A DNA stretch of 41,377 bases from Akkermansiaceae bacterium. Its GTDB lineage: Bacteria > Verrucomicrobiota > Verrucomicrobiia > Verrucomicrobiales > Akkermansiaceae. Shown here piece after piece: positions 30,463 to 41,377 of this stretch. The stretch is taken from NCBI GenBank assembly GCA_947462535.1, contig CANHPN010000017.1, positions 1-41,377 on the forward strand, in the 5' to 3' direction. The notes under the pieces were generated by a model. That model was not told where the DNA came from, ran no database searches, and was given only the letters and a program-made list of their open reading frames with translations. Within the stretch, counting starts at the first letter, position 1; every line of letters starts with the position of its first letter. The position numbers and the translations under genes were made by a program.

Positions 30463-30548
30463 GGGTAGATGCCCGAGTGGCTAAAGGGGGCAGACTGTAA
30501 ATCTGCTAGCGTAAGCTTACGTTGGTTCGAATCCATCTCTACCCACCA
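30463..30548 (+). tRNA. tRNA-Tyr (GTA)
   Basis: The acceptor stem GGGTAGA (30463-30469) pairs with TCTACCC (30538-30544), followed by A and an encoded CCA (30546-30548). The anticodon loop CTGTAAA has anticodon GTA at 30497-30499. A long variable arm (GCGTAAGCTTACGT region) marks a class II tRNA, and the T loop is GGTTCGAATCC. Length 86 nt. A T5 run follows. Confidence 0.97.
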
Positions 30549-36032: not shown

Positions 36033-36308
36033 ATGAAGTCCGGACCGGATTCTCCCCGGAGCGCCCCGCAAGCCCGCCGGACCTCCCGTCTTCCCGGCCG
36101 GAGCACTTCACAAGTCCGCCGGAGTCCCCGACTCCCCTCCGGAACGCTCTGCAAGCCGCCCGCAGCGCCCAACAACCTCCCAAAAGTCCTAAACAACCCT
36201 GCCGGAGCGCCTGACAACCTCGCCGCCGCCTCGATCCTCAAGGACGCGGTGAACCGCATCGGTGACCTGCTCGACGACAGAAAAGTGAACGCCAGCTTCA
36301 AAGGCTGA
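36033..36308 (+). CDS. possible hypothetical protein reading through the 21-bp repeats
   Basis: An open 91-codon frame runs through a degenerate 21-bp tandem repeat, giving 7-residue units rich in Pro, Ala, Ser and Arg (e.g. APNNLPK, VLNNPAG, APDNLAA). It ends ASILKDAVNRIGDLLDDRKVNASFKG, which looks like real protein. One repeat is 20 bp, so the frame shifts relative to the unit there. The minus strand is open too. I cannot decide between a small gene, a decayed gene and non-coding repeats. Confidence 0.25.
   Translation: MKSGPDSPRSAPQARRTSRLPGRSTSQVRRSPRLPSGTLCKPPAAPNNLPKVLNNPAGAPDNLAAASILKDAVNRIGDLLDDRKVNASFKG
36057..36223. repeat. degenerate 21-bp tandem repeats (about 8 units)
   Basis: Units start at 36057, 36078, 36099, 36120, 36140, 36161, 36182 and 36203. 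Most begin CGGAG or CGGAA/CGGAC and contain a CAA-rich second half (e.g. CGGAGCGCCCCGCAAGCCCGC). All are 21 bp except the fourth, which is 20. The last units diverge towards ACAACCTC. Confidence 0.7.
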
Positions 36309-36366
36309 GCGAGAGCACCATTTTTCGGGAGTCATCAATCCGGGGTGAGGGAAGCAATTTTCCTGC

Positions 36367-36487
36367 CTCGGATTTTGCGTTGGGTGCCGCATGGAAGCAC
36401 GTGCCGCTTGCACAAGGGATGGCAATATCGCCTCCCCTCACAAAACCATTCCGCGTGAGTTAGGCATCGTTGGCACGCGGATTGAAC
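36367..36487 (-). repeat. 121-bp conserved tail downstream of integrase remnant (copy A)
   Basis: Aligns without gaps to 40862-40982, with about 98 of 121 positions equal by hand count. It holds a perfect 7-bp hairpin, CCGCGTG (36451-36457) with CACGCGG (36474-36480), whose loop contains GTTAGGCATCGTTGG. It lies just beyond the stop of the recombinase fragment. Read from the recombinase, the order is coding end, hairpin, conserved tail. Confidence 0.85.
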
Positions 36488-36493
36488 AGGCGG

Positions 36494-36757
36494 TCAGCTT
36501 TCCTCCGAATCAGGCAGCGTGACGATTCTCGCCCGGTGATCCCATTGGTAGGTGTTTTCCCACTGGCCCTCTTTCGGCATGATGTTGAACCACGCGGCGG
36601 CTTCATCGTCGCTGGCCAGCTCGCGGTAGTTCTTGAAGATGATGGCCGGCGAGTTTCCGGCTTCGAGGGCGACCTGGTCGGTGCTTTTTACGATGGCGAT
36701 GCGGTAACTGATGAATGAATCGCGAAGCACGTTGCGCGGCCACCCGATCTTTAGGGT
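36494..36757 (-). pseudogene. C-terminal fragment of a tyrosine recombinase/integrase (copy A)
   Basis: Reads GWPRNVLRDSFISYRIAIVKS..VALEAGNSPAIIFKNYREL and ends WFNIMP plus 23 residues. This resembles the LRHSF...YR...GHS/GNS...Y end of phage-type integrases; the tyrosine in IIFKNYREL sits where the nucleophile is expected. The catalytic-domain N-terminus with the first arginine is missing, as an in-frame stop (36758-36760) precedes it. The histidine of LRHSF is Asp here. It pairs with a second such fragment at 40987-41235. Confidence 0.7.
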
Positions 36758-36852
36758 TTACTCCAACGCGGAGATCTGGCGATGAAAATCATTGTCCTTC
36801 ACGATCTTGCCTTTCCGCATCAGGGGCTTCTCAGATCGTCTGTGCTAACGAA

Positions 36853-37896
36853 TCAGAATCTGGCCCATTTCAGCGCTTCCTCCAATTTCTCGGGTGAGGC
36901 ATTGACATGGCCCATGCCTAGAACATCGATGAAAAGATAGTTGGCGCGCGCGGCTTTCCAGTCCGCGCTGGTTTTGAGAATTTCCTTGTAGTTGAAATCC
37001 TTGTCACCGGAAATCACGACCCACTTGTGATCTTTGCAATCCTTCCCCGTGATATCGCGCACTGCGAGACCGGGAAAATGACCGCAGCCTCCATTCCCTG
37101 GCAGGTAGCTTTGCGCAGCATGGCTGATCGATGCGCGGAACCATTGCGGAAACATGGCATGCGTCAACATAGCGATGTGACCGCCACCTGAAAGACCACC
37201 CACACAAACCCGTTTCTCATCCACATTCCATTGTTTTTTGACCGCAGCCAAGGCATCGACGGCGAGTTTTACGCGGCGCATCATGGGTTGCTTGTTCGAG
37301 GTTCCCTTGGGGCACACATAGATCAGGGACAATCGATCCATGACTGGCTGACAATTTATAAGTTCATGCCCTTGATCGTTCGCGCTGACGTGCAGATACA
37401 CGCCCATTGGCTTGGCGGGATCATAGTGAGCCGGCACGTAAACAATCATCGCACCATTGTCATAAGAGAACATTTCTTCGATCGGGCCTTTGTTCGCATC
37501 CCACTCTTTGGGGAAATTGCCTTTGGCAAAAGCGTCATACACCGCCTTCGCGTTCGCTCCCTCCAGGTATTCCTTCGCGGTGGCATAGGCAGGCTGGCGT
37601 ATCTCCACATGGTTCATGTATCCCGTCTTGGCATCGCCACCTTTCATGGGCTTGTCCGCTTTAGGCGAGTCCGCTACCTGTTTTGAGACAAATGTGCGAT
37701 CCGCTGCTGAGAGTTTATTCAGCACATATTTGATCTCTTTGCCATTCATCAGCAAGGTTACCTCAGAGCCATCGCTGCTTACAAACTCGGCATTAATCAC
37801 CTTGCCCTCGTTGTTTGTCCATTTGCGGGTCTCACCAGCGGCTGCATGAGTGGAAACCACAATAGCTAACAACATTCGCAAAAAATCAAAATTCAT
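36853..37896 (-). CDS. exported SHD1-domain alpha/beta hydrolase (esterase-like), paralogue 1
   Basis: A 347-residue secreted hydrolase. Signal peptide MNFDFLRMLLAIVVSTHAAAG is followed by an SHD1-like domain (TRKWTNNEGKVINAEFVSSDGSEVTLLMNGKEIKYVLNKLSAADRTFV, about 23-70) and an esterase domain of PHB-depolymerase type. The nucleophile is Ser236 in GGLSGGG. Asp298 (SGDKD) and His330 (GMGH) complete the likely triad. SHD1 domains are frequent in Planctomycete/Verrucomicrobial exported proteins. Start at ATG 37896; an earlier ATG at 37914 would add six residues. Base composition is more AT-rich than in the core genes. Confidence 0.8.
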   Translation of the reverse strand: MNFDFLRMLLAIVVSTHAAAGETRKWTNNEGKVINAEFVSSDGSEVTLLMNGKEIKYVLNKLSAADRTFVSKQVADSPKADKPMKGGDAKTGYMNHVEIRQPAYATAKEYLEGANAKAVYDAFAKGNFPKEWDANKGPIEEMFSYDNGAMIVYVPAHYDPAKPMGVYLHVSANDQGHELINCQPVMDRLSLIYVCPKGTSNKQPMMRRVKLAVDALAAVKKQWNVDEKRVCVGGLSGGGHIAMLTHAMFPQWFRASISHAAQSYLPGNGGCGHFPGLAVRDITGKDCKDHKWVVISGDKDFNYKEILKTSADWKAARANYLFIDVLGMGHVNASPEKLEEALKWARF

Positions 37897-38104
37897 GGGT
37901 GGTAGCTTCATCAAAGTTATCCATTAACGTCAACCGATTTATGAGGAAAAAGGGAAATACATGTGACGGATTTGAACTCCGTGACAGCTCTTTCATGGAT
38001 TTGCGGCCATGAACTGAAGTGGCCCTGATGCCAAACGGGAGTGTATGGCCATCTCCATCAGACGGAGCCATGGTCCGTTTCTTTGGCCGCATCGAAGCTA
38101 TCTA

Positions 38105-39061
38105 TCATCTAACTTTTATCAAGTCGGGATCAAGGGGGGTGGGCGAACGTTTGCCGGCTGACATCCGGTTTCCCGCCAAGGTTGATGTTTTGAGCCATTG
38201 CATGGCTTCCAGGACGACTGCCGGGGGTGCAATGACGTGGCCGCCTTTGAAGCTGAAGGTTTTCACCTCGCAACGCTCCCTCTCAAGGACCCGGGTATCA
38301 CGCTGGACGCAGGAGTTCGCATTCTTGTCCGCATCGCCATTGACGATGGCCACCGCCATTTTCGGCGCGCAGTTCAGGCTCTCCTTGCCGCCAAGCCAGC
38401 CACCGAATGCGAGCACTCCCTTCCATGGTCGGGCACAGCTTTCGGAATAATCATAGGCTCTCAAGGCTCCACCCGACATACCGCCGAGATAGAGCAAATC
38501 CCCGTCATGGGGCACGGTCTTCTCAATGTGTGGCAGGACTTCGTGCCATTTTTTATCGAGCACGGCTTCGTCCGAATTGTTTTTAAACACATCGCATCCC
38601 ACTCCCACCCAGCCAAGTGTCTCACAAGCATCCTTTACGGAGCCGAGGATTCCTTTGCCGCTGCCCCCGGCACTAAACATGATGATCATCGCGGGCGGAG
38701 AATCCGGATTGTAGCTCGTCGGATAATAAACATGGTAGGAAACGGCCTCCGGTCCATCGGATTGATTGGAAACGGTCTTGCCGGCATTGCCTCGGATCGC
38801 CGCGGTCGCTTCGACCAATTTGCTCTGGCGCTCGGTCAGCCACGATTGATCGGAATCGCTGAGTGCATCAAGTGCCAGCGTCGCATTTGTGCCGTTTGAT
38901 AGCTTGAGCGTGACTTTTTTTGTCTCGGAATCGTAGCTCACGAGTTCGGCCTGAATGGTCTTGCCTTCACGGTTGGACCAGGTACGGGACTCCGCATGCA
39001 GCGATGACGTGGAAAGGACAAAAAGGCTGGCAAGAGTGATATGAGGGGTCAGTGATTTCAT
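38105..39061 (-). CDS. exported SHD1-domain alpha/beta hydrolase, paralogue 2
   Basis: A 318-residue secreted protein with the same layout as its neighbour: signal peptide MKSLTPHITLASLFVLSTSSLHA, an SHD1-like domain (SRTWSNREGKTIQAELVSYDSETKKVTLKLSNGTNATLALDALSDSDQSWL, about 25-75) and a hydrolase domain. The likely triad is Ser196 in GGMSGGA, Asp243/Asp245 (NGDAD) and His275 (GGH). The two differ widely outside these motifs, so the duplication is old or they arrived together. Substrate unknown; short-chain or wall-linked esters are possible. The 208-bp gap between them (37897-38104) shows no gene. Confidence 0.8.
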   Translation of the reverse strand: MKSLTPHITLASLFVLSTSSLHAESRTWSNREGKTIQAELVSYDSETKKVTLKLSNGTNATLALDALSDSDQSWLTERQSKLVEATAAIRGNAGKTVSNQSDGPEAVSYHVYYPTSYNPDSPPAMIIMFSAGGSGKGILGSVKDACETLGWVGVGCDVFKNNSDEAVLDKKWHEVLPHIEKTVPHDGDLLYLGGMSGGALRAYDYSESCARPWKGVLAFGGWLGGKESLNCAPKMAVAIVNGDADKNANSCVQRDTRVLERERCEVKTFSFKGGHVIAPPAVVLEAMQWLKTSTLAGNRMSAGKRSPTPLDPDLIKVR

Positions 39062-39170
39062 CTGTGTGTGACGATCAAGCCGGTTGAAACAGGAGAAATT
39101 TTGCCGCTAAGCAGTTGATTCCGCAAGCCTTGAGTCGCGGGAGCCGGGTGAGGGCCTCCATGGGCTGCAG

Positions 39171-39250
39171 CTGCAGGAAGTTGCTTATTGCAAGAAGCTC
39201 CTGAAAGAGCTAATGGGACGGACCGGAGGGCGGGGAAATGGGGGTTGTGT
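39171..39250. repeat. 80-bp intergenic repeat (copy 1), 3' side of the duplicated-domain gene
   Basis: Aligns without gaps to 40581-40660, including the exact blocks CTGAAAGAGC and GACCGGAGGG and a nearly exact GAAATGGGGGTTG. The two copies flank the gene at 39285-40427 in the same orientation. On the minus strand both read NPHFxALRSxPxALSGA, so they may derive from a coding sequence now lost. Confidence 0.7.
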
Positions 39251-39284
39251 CTCGTCTTGTTCGCTTGGACTTTCTTTGAAAGAC

Positions 39285-40427
39285 TTACTCGCGAAGAACC
39301 CTGTAGAACTCTTTAGGTTTTAGTGCCTCCACATAAAATGCCGTTTCTGATCCTGTTCCAGTCAAGGATGCTCCAGTCGGTGAAAACGTGACTAAATCAT
39401 CGCTGTTGTAGAGAACATACGTTACGCCAGTTTCGCCAAAAAACTTAATAGCGTGAGCACGTGCAATGGTGGCAGAAATTGCATAGGCGATGTCACGGGC
39501 ATGAGCCGCAGATAGATTTTCATCCGGGGCTTCGCGAACGAAAACCAGAGGAATCACTGGGGATGATCCCGCTGCAAACTTCCACTGAACCCAACCATCT
39601 CCAGAGGAGAAGCGCACCTTAGACCAGTTGTCGCTGGAGCTCATAATGTTGCCTCGGAATGGCGAGAAATATGCTTCGTTTGTGCCAGATTGGTCGGGGG
39701 CTACGAACGTCGAAGTTCCTCTCACCCACGCGTCACCTCCACCCGATTGCCCGGTAAGGCCATAGCCTCCCGTTGCGTCAATTGCGGCGAACGATCCGAA
39801 ATCCGCCAGAGAAACATCGTTAATTCCGTCACCGTCGATGTCATTGAGACCATTCGCAAGCGGAATTCCAAGGTTTCCTCCTTCTCTCTGAACGCGATAC
39901 GCAACCTCCCAGGCCTGAGCCGCAGATAGATTCTCATCGGGAGCCTCGCGAACGAAAACAAGAGGAATCACTGGGGATGACCCCGCTGCAAACTTCCACT
40001 GAACCCAACCATCTCCAGAGGAGAAGCGCACCTTAGACCAGTTGTCGCTGGAGCTCATAATGTTGCCTCGGAATGGCGAGAAATATGCTTCGTTTGTGCC
40101 AGCTTGGTCGGGGGCTACGAATGTCGAAGTTCTTCTCACCCATGCGTCACCTCCACCCGATTGCCCGGTTAGGCCATAACCTCCCGTTGCGTCGATTGCT
40201 GCGAACGATTCAAAATCCGCCAGAGAAACATCGTTAATGCCATCACCATCAATGTCATTAAGGCCAGCCGCAAGCGGACTTCCCAGCTTTCCACCAGTGA
40301 ACTGGCTGGTTGCCGCATTTGCGAAACTTGAGGCAAACAAAACAACGATACCTAAGCAGCCGCATAGGTGTATTGGGTTTTTAAGAAGTATTCTATTGTC
40401 GTTCGTTGATAGGTGTTTGTTTTTCAT
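39285..40427 (-). CDS. secreted protein with duplicated DxDGDG calcium-motif domain
   Basis: A 380-residue exported protein with a signal-like segment (LLKNPIHLCGCLGIVVLFASSFANAA). It contains two nearly identical copies of about 125 residues (unit about 53-178 and 191-316), each opening NGLNDIDGDGINDVSLADF. This EF-hand/thrombospondin type 3-like calcium loop is followed by GGYGLTGQSGGGDAWVR and DNWSKVRFSSGDGWVQWKF. The C-terminal 70 residues (IKFFGETGVTYVLYNSDDL.. ending EFYRVLRE) match the short domain that ends many Verrucomicrobial secreted proteins. Function unknown; adhesion or polysaccharide contact is possible. AT-richer than the core genome. Confidence 0.75.
   Translation of the reverse strand: MKNKHLSTNDNRILLKNPIHLCGCLGIVVLFASSFANAATSQFTGGKLGSPLAAGLNDIDGDGINDVSLADFESFAAIDATGGYGLTGQSGGGDAWVRRTSTFVAPDQAGTNEAYFSPFRGNIMSSSDNWSKVRFSSGDGWVQWKFAAGSSPVIPLVFVREAPDENLSAAQAWEVAYRVQREGGNLGIPLANGLNDIDGDGINDVSLADFGSFAAIDATGGYGLTGQSGGGDAWVRGTSTFVAPDQSGTNEAYFSPFRGNIMSSSDNWSKVRFSSGDGWVQWKFAAGSSPVIPLVFVREAPDENLSAAHARDIAYAISATIARAHAIKFFGETGVTYVLYNSDDLVTFSPTGASLTGTGSETAFYVEALKPKEFYRVLRE
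39502..40291 (-). repeat. 414-bp tandem duplication inside the secreted-protein gene
   Basis: The segment 39502-39877 repeats at 39916-40291 with a constant 414-bp offset (138 codons). Long stretches are identical in DNA, for example across 39551-39700 against 39965-40114, and differences are mostly single bases. In-frame and recent. Confidence 0.9.
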
Positions 40428-40456
40428 ATTGATTTATAGATTTAGCGATTGAGGTA

Positions 40457-40520
40457 GGAACGCCGATTGCCCGGCGTTCCCCTCGCAGATCCCAGCGTGC
40501 GAAACTACCGCACTAGGCTC
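40457..40520. other. structured intergenic segment upstream of the secreted-protein gene
   Basis: GGAACGCCG (40457-40465) pairs perfectly with CGGCGTTCC (40472-40480). A second hairpin, GTGCG/CGCAC (40497-40501 with 40509-40513), follows within 20 bp, flanked by AGC...GGCT. The order resembles a small structured RNA or the end of a mobile element. No ORF. The rest of the 558-bp gap 40428-40986 holds only the repeats listed. Confidence 0.5.
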
Positions 40521-40580
40521 CTCGGATAGACGCGCAAACAGAGCGCGTGGATTCATTAGTTTGTCCGCTTTGATTCATGC

Positions 40581-40660
40581 TGCTAGGAATTTGCTTTCTG
40601 CGGGGGGCCCCTGAAAGAGCCATTGGGGCGGACCGGAGGGCGGAGAAATGGGGGTTGCGG
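40581..40660. repeat. 80-bp intergenic repeat (copy 2), 5' side of the duplicated-domain gene
   Basis: Colinear with 39171-39250 (about 60 of 80 positions equal by hand count). Direct orientation, 1410 bp apart, bracketing one gene. Confidence 0.7.
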
Positions 40661-40861
40661 GGGAAAAGGGGACGGAAGAAGTGTTTCGGTGCTTCGGGTA
40701 ACGGTGTTTCGGTAAGAAAAATCCCAGTCCGCGCCGGTAATCGGAGGACTCGGGAGCTTTCACGGCGGTTTTCATTTGCCGCGATCGTAGCTCTCCGAAC
40801 CGCTGTGCCAAGATTTATTTGGGCGACGGTTTGTTGGGTGCTGGGGGGCTTCTCTTTTGGG

Positions 40862-40982
40862 CTCGGATTTTGCGTTTGGTGTTGCGTAGTAGCATGTTGC
40901 AGCCGCACAGGGGATGGCAATATGACCGGCCACCACAAAACCATTCCGCGTCCGTTAGGCATCGTTGGCGCGCGGATTGAAC
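40862..40982 (-). repeat. 121-bp conserved tail downstream of integrase remnant (copy B)
   Basis: Same length as 36367-36487 and ungapped against it. The hairpin is kept in a changed form: CCGCG (40946-40950) with CGCGG (40971-40975) and an inner CC/GG pair, around the identical loop GTTAGGCATCGTT. Stem bases vary while the loop is fixed. It lies 4 bp from the end of the second recombinase fragment. Confidence 0.85.
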
Positions 40983-40986
40983 GAGA

Positions 40987-41235
40987 TCACTTGATCTCCG
41001 CGCCGTTGAGGATCACTCGCCGCTTCTTGCGATCATAGGTGAGGGTGTTTTCCAACTGGCCGTCCTTGGGCAGAATGGCGAACCACTTCTCCGCAACCTC
41101 AGGCGTGGTCAGCTCCCGGTAGTGTTTGAAGATGATCGACGCGGAGTTGCCCGCCTCAAGCGCCACCTGATCGGCACTTTGGACGATGGCAATCCGGTAA
41201 CTGATGAATGAGTCCCGAAGCACGTTGCGCGGCCA
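40987..41235 (-). pseudogene. C-terminal fragment of a tyrosine recombinase/integrase (copy B)
   Basis: Reads WPRNVLRDSFISYRIAIVQSADQVALEAGNSASIIFKHYREL and ends WFAILP plus a polar tail. It is clearly homologous to 36494-36757. Only the last part of the catalytic domain remains. The sequence upstream switches at about 41235 into an istB fragment on the opposite strand, so the gene was cut by an IS21-type insertion or rearrangement. LRDSF again has Asp where LRHSF is usual, which suggests the two copies share an ancestor that already carried it. Confidence 0.75.
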
Positions 41236-41336
41236 TCGACCGATTGGTGCATCACTCCATCATCCTGGAGTTCGACGGCGCGAGCCAACGGGTGAAAAAG
41301 GCTGGCGAGAAAGAGCCCGAACCAGCCGTCGGCTAG
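41229..41336 (+). pseudogene. C-terminal fragment of an IS21-type istB helper ATPase
   Basis: Thirty-five codons read AAIDRLVHHSIILEFDGASQRVKK... and stop at 41336. IDRLVHHSIILEF followed by a GxS-x-R motif is the typical end of IstB, the helper ATPase of IS21-family transposons. The rest of the gene is missing; the left boundary runs straight into the recombinase fragment. After the stop, 41351-41366 forms TGGGGC/GCCCCA, possibly part of the element end. The window ends 41 bp later. Confidence 0.6.
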
Positions 41337-41377
41337 CTCCATGCGGCTTATGGGGCTGCCGCCCCAAACCCCGCCGA

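Follow-up and report, generated by a model that had tools for sequence, protein, structure and literature searches.

A repeated intergenic element that may let single genes, including the integrase, be exchanged in an apparently undescribed temperate phage family of Akkermansiaceae

Two integrase remnants and their tails

The stretch analyzed here (the window) comprises all 41,377 nt of contig CANHPN010000017.1 from an Akkermansiaceae bacterium (assembly GCA_947462535.1, genome G000 below), the contig ending at 41377. Close to this end lie two truncated C-terminal parts of tyrosine integrase genes, relic 1 and relic 2, each followed by a similar non-coding tail, and both tails are copies, in one of its forms, of an intergenic element, X, that recurs in related genomes. 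The first-pass annotation of the window had reported two such relics in the same orientation with a shared 121-bp tail, and both the repeat and the two minus-strand relic frames have been recovered. The ungapped direct repeat (36367–36487 and 40862–40982) has 81% identity and a spacing of 4495 nt; further repeat blocks are located past the tails, in DNA encoding the integrase C-terminus (e.g., 36613–36742 and 41106–41235, 82%), and the complete gapped match of both copies spans 386–388 bp with 76% identity (E ~1.6e-43). Read in the integrase sense, that is on the minus strand, each copy runs from the integrase end through a few bases into the tail. The features at and around the relics are as follows.

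36220–36311, plus strand: 3' end of gene A, a small phage gene, convergent on the integrase gene in relatives, that marks the left edge of the inserted block.
36337–36374: terminator-like hairpin between the integrase gene and gene A, from the sequence and the fold of the tail alignment.
36367–36487, minus strand: tail of relic 1, a tail-like copy of X, from the direct repeat and comparison of X copies.
36494–36829, minus strand: relic 1, integrase C-terminal end, residues ~339–444, with one internal stop; closest to integrases at tRNA-Lys genes.
40862–40982, minus strand: tail of relic 2, a tail-like copy of X, identified in the same way.
40987–41235, minus strand: relic 2, integrase C-terminal end, residues 368–443; closest to integrases at tRNA-Leu(AAG) genes.
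41238–41336, plus strand: stretch that may encode the C-terminus of an IstB-like protein of the IS21 family, adjoining relic 2 (IstB_IS21, profile positions 214–235 of 238, below the cut-off).

The integrases nearest to relic 1 are those at tRNA-Lys genes (82% identity at locus L069 and 79% at L066), and the ones nearest to relic 2, those at tRNA-Leu AAG genes (95% at L076 and 92% at L077). As the relics fall into different integrase clades, they are read from their sequences as remnants of two different prophages. Relic 1 has kept 92 bp of gene A as well as the terminator-like hairpin, while relic 2 has no gene A, and a piece of a putative IS91-family element (U-R, see below) is present at relic 2 only. 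The match of the chromosome to the related genome G001 (94% over 4.5 kb) stops at 36222, with divergence beyond. Upstream, relic 2 is bordered by the IstB-like stretch, which resembles the last 22 residues of an IstB protein (E 0.0048, below the Pfam cut-off, at the correct end of the profile). The nearest tRNA gene of the window, tRNA-Tyr at 30463–30548, is ~6 kb away from the relics, and no tRNA gene is found at the equivalent locus in eight relatives (3–4 kb each around the flanking ApbE gene); therefore the present site of the relics is probably a rearranged one, and simple tRNA integration is unlikely to have brought the block here.

According to the first-pass annotation, the 3' end of the recombinase gene looks as if repeatedly left behind. 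Relics with tails occur in several loci, but no fixed cut is seen, since their starting residues vary from ~309 to 373, with one at 410. A site-specific cut inside the integrase gene had been considered because in several loci the starts cluster near residues 364–373, and was rejected given the others at ~309–345 or 410. Three of the clustered starts (L068, L077, and L106) share one junction with gene A, whereas relic 2 borders the IstB-like end. In these three loci, from two genomes, a cut gene A is joined to the integrase C-terminus identically (L068:323, L077:13915, L106:3506). We infer common descent of this junction, which could reflect either a single deletion between stacked prophages that spread, or recurrent deletion. 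Additional broken pieces of the same integrase, comprising N-terminal and middle parts, are present elsewhere in the genome of the window (G000:C72:11405–12074 and G000:C24:23433–23885).

Full-length integrases and element X in related genomes

The integrase was searched for in 99 genomes (G000 and 98 relatives), with matches at E 1e-20 or better in 62 of them, and 52 loci were taken around the stronger matches. Together with contig C77 of G000, they yielded 27 full-length copies from the same genus with at least 52% identity. The C77 copy, the third one in the genome of the window, has the order tRNA-Arg, 73 bases, a gene for a 445-aa integrase, and the tail. At least the start of the tail is found behind all 27 copies, three of the tails being partial (in L076 and L085 the contig ends, and L065 departs from the model after 33 positions), so that full-length copies do end beside the tail, as the first-pass annotation had proposed to check. 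The tail is absent behind a distant same-genus copy (L092, 47%) and behind copies from other families (L064, 67%; L087, 72%; L089–L091, 46–49%).

In 22 of the 27 cases ARAGORN predicts a same-strand tRNA gene (Arg, Lys, Leu, Phe, Tyr, or Met) directly upstream of the integrase gene, and the 445-aa protein encoded beside the tRNA matches only the general Phage_integrase model. At one locus, G017:C11, a 125-bp stretch including the 3' half of the tRNA gene recurs 58 kb from the integrase gene with 94% identity, and terminase, portal, tape-measure, and helicase genes are located between the repeats; the far repeat is accompanied by the first 74 residues of a second integrase, as if prophages were stacked at one tRNA. 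As the 5' side of the integrase gene lies against a tRNA gene and the tRNA half is repeated at this locus, the tail is unlike an attachment site, contrary to the first-pass proposal that it is the recombination site; the attachment site is likely at the tRNA side, that is, at the other end of the integrase gene. An 11-tRNA array is located downstream of a tail-bearing integrase in G017:C45 (L078:3062–4446).

Temperate phages with tyrosine integrases integrating at tRNA genes are a known class, and the relatives share its features, namely a tyrosine integrase at the 3' end of a tRNA gene in these 22 cases and, at the one locus, packaging, portal, and tail genes between repeats of the tRNA 3' half. 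Behind the tail, the small convergent gene A is present in 13 of 44 aligned tail regions, and the terminator-like hairpin between them is common to the ends of both genes. The best match of the integrase in a phage collection is an Akkermansia phage integrase with 27% identity over 59% of the query, and hence the family looks undescribed there. Literature searches aimed at the phage family, in which X was not searched by sequence, listed no paper on it. A peptide-pattern search of viral contigs retrieved no relative of the integrase, which is a limit of the method, as DNA patterns did lead to contigs carrying the integrase: out of 18 viral-contig stretches found by the X motif, five contain an integrase with the tail-like form behind it, although this motif-selected set is not an independent test.

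X is an intergenic element of ~110–140 bp that starts near stop codons and occurs not only behind integrases, but also between early phage genes. Allowing one mismatch, the pattern GTTCAATCCGCRYGCCAA has 52 matches in 20 of 79 genomes, compared to two for the reversed control; some of the 52 are not X, as at least three (L259, L266, and L271) of 17 regions around the motif are unlike X by eye. Two forms of X have been distinguished: the tail-like T-form, and the leader, or L-form, which ends at the next start codon, differs greatly in its interior from copy to copy, and has a possible ribosome-site hairpin, seen by eye. The start of X is positioned from –6 to +25 nt relative to the end of a stop codon (frames of at least 60 codons) in 48 of 67 copies (T-form, 39 of 52; L-form, 9 of 15), compared to 14% of random positions. 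X is also present in predicted viral contigs, where a T-form copy is followed by one or two L-form copies on the same strand in 8 of the 18 stretches. Depending on the tail, the loop of the first inverted repeat contains either CTAA(C) or its reverse complement, GTTAG (L062, L072, and L078 versus L071, L080, and L082), as if flipped.

The first-pass description of the tail as a hairpin has weak support. A short inverted repeat opens each tail in the window (predicted folds have 8 and 6 pairs there), but compared to dinucleotide shuffles the tails fold no better (RNA z-scores –0.87 and +1.69). The terminator-like structure at the tail end of relic 1 is the stronger hairpin. Similarly, z-scores in 14 single X copies range from –3.45 to +1.69, four of them being –1.79 or lower and five positive. 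The consensus fold of the tail has 29 pairs, five of them with both sides changed in some sequence, and four of these five are in the terminator; RNA structure is claimed for the terminator-like hairpin only. The search for known RNAs produced a single sub-threshold Rfam match in the region 36150–41377, outside the tails, and only tRNAs in five prophage loci.

Exchange at X and its possible explanations

Integrase clade and tRNA target go together, while the tail type tracks the integrase weakly. Mapped on the integrase tree, tRNA targets require six changes for 22 loci, which is the minimum possible (mean of shuffles 14.3, none of 5000 as low), and tail classes, nine changes for 25 loci, where two would be the minimum (mean of shuffles 11.6). 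Three integrase pairs with 0.99 identity have tails with identity of 0.84–0.93 (e.g., 0.84 for L004/L061) and DNA beyond the tail with 0.40–0.72; on the contrary, in the pair L071/L081 the integrases are 0.72 identical, the tails 0.93, and the DNA beyond 0.89. The correlation between integrase and tail identities over all 276 pairs from 24 loci is 0.33, and distant pairs show higher conservation in the tail than in the integrase DNA. Moreover, two other-family integrases without the tail are nested inside a tail-bearing clade (support 0.88–0.97).

Away from the integrase, gene gain or loss between X copies is seen behind a RadC-like gene. The order X, ATP-dependent DNA ligase gene, X is found in G035:C69 and in G018, the latter having an extra small reading frame before the ligase gene. 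The ligase gene is absent in G046, which has a single X at the same place, and contig G035:C79 carries a single chimeric X without the ligase gene, in which a left flank of the first-copy type is joined to a right half of the second-copy type, with different DNA behind it. Hence, of the first-pass suggestion that different cargos may sit between copies of the tail, a changed form is supported, that is, related X copies as a shared boundary around genes that come and go, while there is no support for the tail as a recombination site of the integrase itself.

With moderate confidence, we favor an explanation in which the relics are debris of two members of one family of siphovirus-like temperate phages of Akkermansiaceae that integrate at tRNA genes, and X serves as a homology seam. 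Intact members have the order tRNA, integrase, tail, terminator, convergent gene A, and late genes. Homologous recombination by phage or host enzymes between X copies of different phages would replace the gene beside X and leave its neighbors unharmed; at the integrase, such an exchange would replace the integrase and thus the tRNA target, the tail and the backbone staying in place. In the window, later deletions, an IS21-type element, and IS91-family ends would have cut two prophages down to integrase ends with tails, with host-type genes between them. We infer that recombination at X is homologous rather than site-specific and that attachment occurs at the tRNA, and the same holds for any regulatory role of X.

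Several observations weigh against this explanation. T-form copies were mostly found via integrase searches, and thus both the 27 of 27 tails and the stop-codon counts are partly selected. Among the 27 integrase genes, three (L078, L085, and L086) have no upstream tRNA, L070 has tRNA-Leu on the other strand, and L081 starts inside the integrase gene at a contig end; the right attachment site (attR) was not found near the integrase in 30 loci, analyzed up to ~14 kb downstream and many over less than 3 kb. As few tail-class changes as observed are produced by 5.3% of shuffles, and in a variant with two misplaced tail classes there are 10 changes compared to 10.4 in shuffles. In most of the 15 close pairs the tail and the integrase have near-equal identities (0.86/0.88 for L078/L080, 0.91/0.93 for L073/L075), and the DNA beyond is still 0.72 alike in L060/L061, indicating that integrase and tail are often inherited together. 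The ligase case comprises four loci and one chimera. X shows little covariation, and its fold energies are shuffle-like in most copies; no sigma-70-type promoter was recognized inside any X copy, with 4 sites compared to 2.7 expected at the one early locus scanned. Gene A matches no named family.

Part of these observations would be expected under plain prophage decay with a conserved 3' region of the integrase gene, where the tail would be the end of the integrase mRNA, with a terminator and an RNA-stability or regulatory role, the other X copies would be leaders, and the exchange would be incidental. The terminator-like hairpin at the tail end, shared by the integrase gene and gene A, the extension of L-form copies, with their possible ribosome-site hairpin, up to the next start codon, and the parallel divergence of tail and integrase in most close pairs all fit it. 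We still regard this as unlikely, though as the most serious competitor, given the nearly identical integrases with diverged tails and diverged integrases with similar tails, the ligase gene that comes and goes between X copies, and the unremarkable fold energies. A simple local segmental duplication of one integrase end with its tail, for which two direct copies 4.5 kb apart might speak, is hardly credible: the relics belong to different clades (relic 1 is 82% identical to L069, relic 2, 95% to L076), so that gene conversion would be needed, and gene A accompanies relic 1 only, and U-R, relic 2 only. The first-pass annotation had taken a tail confined to these two places as a sign of duplication, and a third copy, with a full-length gene, is present in the same genome; it had also taken tails away from recombinase ends as a sign of duplication. 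Such tails do exist, but they point to a repeated phage element instead.

Two further possibilities assign a specific recombination function to X. It is improbable that X is a dedicated recombination signal of a phage recombinase or of the integrase that swaps single genes as cassettes, the integrase and its target being swapped in one step. We give marginally less credit still to an integron-like cassette system, in which X would be the site-specific recombination site of the integrase and the genes between its copies, the cargo. Integron attC sites lie close to stop codons, as X does; X copies also flank a gene that is present in some loci and absent in others, and the CTAAC and GTTAG loop motifs resemble attC boxes. 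Contrary to this, tRNA genes are found on the 5' side of the integrase gene in most loci and matching tRNA repeats in one, relatives of the same integrase in another family have no tail, the interiors of L-form copies differ greatly, and the relic starting points vary.

Under the favored homology-seam explanation, X may thus be a repeated element of an apparently undescribed temperate phage family that lets single genes, including the integrase, be exchanged. A clean exchange of the integrase, and hence a change of the insertion site, is hard to see in temperate phages, as seams are rarely visible; a conserved element right behind the integrase stop codon, together with the weak tracking of tail types, makes exchange at the seam testable. 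X also helps to explain the scattered integrase ends with the same tail in these genomes.

The block between the relics and comparison with known systems

Between the relics, the window contains the following features.

36853–37914, minus strand: 353-aa protein; Peptidase_S9 match barely above the cut-off, SHD1 match below it.
38105–39061, minus strand: 318-aa protein; weak SHD1 match under the cut-off, relatives in 7 other genomes.
39174–39253, minus strand: solo R, putative end of an IS91-family element, from repeat comparison with other genomes.
39285–40427, minus strand: 380-aa protein containing a 300-bp internal tandem duplication; no family match passes the cut-off.
40448–40522, minus strand: weak similarity to group II introns (Rfam Intron_gpII, E 0.0064, below the gathering score).
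40569–40822, minus strand: U-R, putatively the terminal ~250 bp of an IS91-family element whose transposase is missing (R at 40569–40660, U up to 40822).

The three genes were described in the first pass as AT-richer and located on one strand, which agrees with their GC content (0.513, 0.555, and 0.511, compared to 0.615 for the window); the label "secreted" reflects hydrophobic N-termini judged by eye. The 318-aa protein has relatives with 30–44% identity in 7 of the 58 other genomes searched, and its gene therefore looks like a host accessory gene. The duplicated segments of the 380-aa gene (39483–39782 and 39897–40196) are 93% identical, and the intron-like match sits just upstream of this gene.

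The 77-bp repeat R has matches in 56 of 145 genomes of the family at E 1e-4, often in several copies, mostly on one strand, in arrays; at most six candidates were scored per genome, so copy numbers are lower bounds. Among the matches listed, homology between loci often breaks at the R edge. In L155 and L162, U-R is located directly downstream of Zn_Tnp_IS91/Y2_Tnp transposase genes (502 and 505 aa), and thus R is read as an IS91-type end, two copies of which appear to bracket the 380-aa gene. An integron-like reading of R was rejected in view of these transposases and of the R alignment, which yields no consensus fold (energy 0). A 42-base R pattern has no exact matches in viral contigs. Several or exact tandem R copies occur among host genes, mostly without an adjacent transposase, in L155, L156, L157, L160, L161, L172, and other loci. 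The adjacency of U-R and transposase is that of IS91-family elements, from which the window differs in having ends only, with no transposase. The genes between the relics, regarded in the first pass as possible cargo, lie in a block bounded in part by IS91-family ends. The window on its own is unremarkable, with remnants of two prophages, IS21- and IS91-type remains, and host-type genes.

Compared to integrons (IntI/attC), where a cassette array would be beside the integrase gene, here the integrase gene is followed by one tail and then by gene A or an IS91-type end, with no cassette array.

Promoter early stem loops (PeSL) of T4-type phages were reportedly described by Arbiol in 2010 and Comeau in 2014. 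PeSL are repeated intergenic motifs linked to gene shuffling between related phages (PMC4503421, PMC3950731). X similarly is a repeated intergenic element with gene exchange between its copies, although here exchange is seen in few loci. The carriers are also different, T4-type phages in one case, and in the other, temperate siphovirus-like phages of Akkermansiaceae with tape-measure and integrase genes. Moreover, PeSL contain a promoter, while none was recognized in X by the sigma-70-type scan of one locus; one form of X is downstream of the integrase gene, and the terminator-like hairpin is present in the integrase copy only. X therefore resembles PeSL in its apparent mode of action, but, given the different kind of phage and the lack of a recognized promoter, it is not filed as PeSL.

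The haloarchaeal virus HGTV-1 has a conserved inverted-repeat motif before many open reading frames, for which a role in regulation and genome shuffling has been proposed (PMC3950731). Like X, this motif recurs before many genes of a tailed virus and contains an inverted repeat, but a TATA-like box is reported for it, while none was found in X, and X also follows the integrase gene. Finally, conserved boundary sequences at the edges of phage modules have been described, with short homology proposed to guide exchange (PMC3029335). X shares with them short homology at the edges, and differs in that one related element is found at several edges per genome, one of them at the integrase gene.

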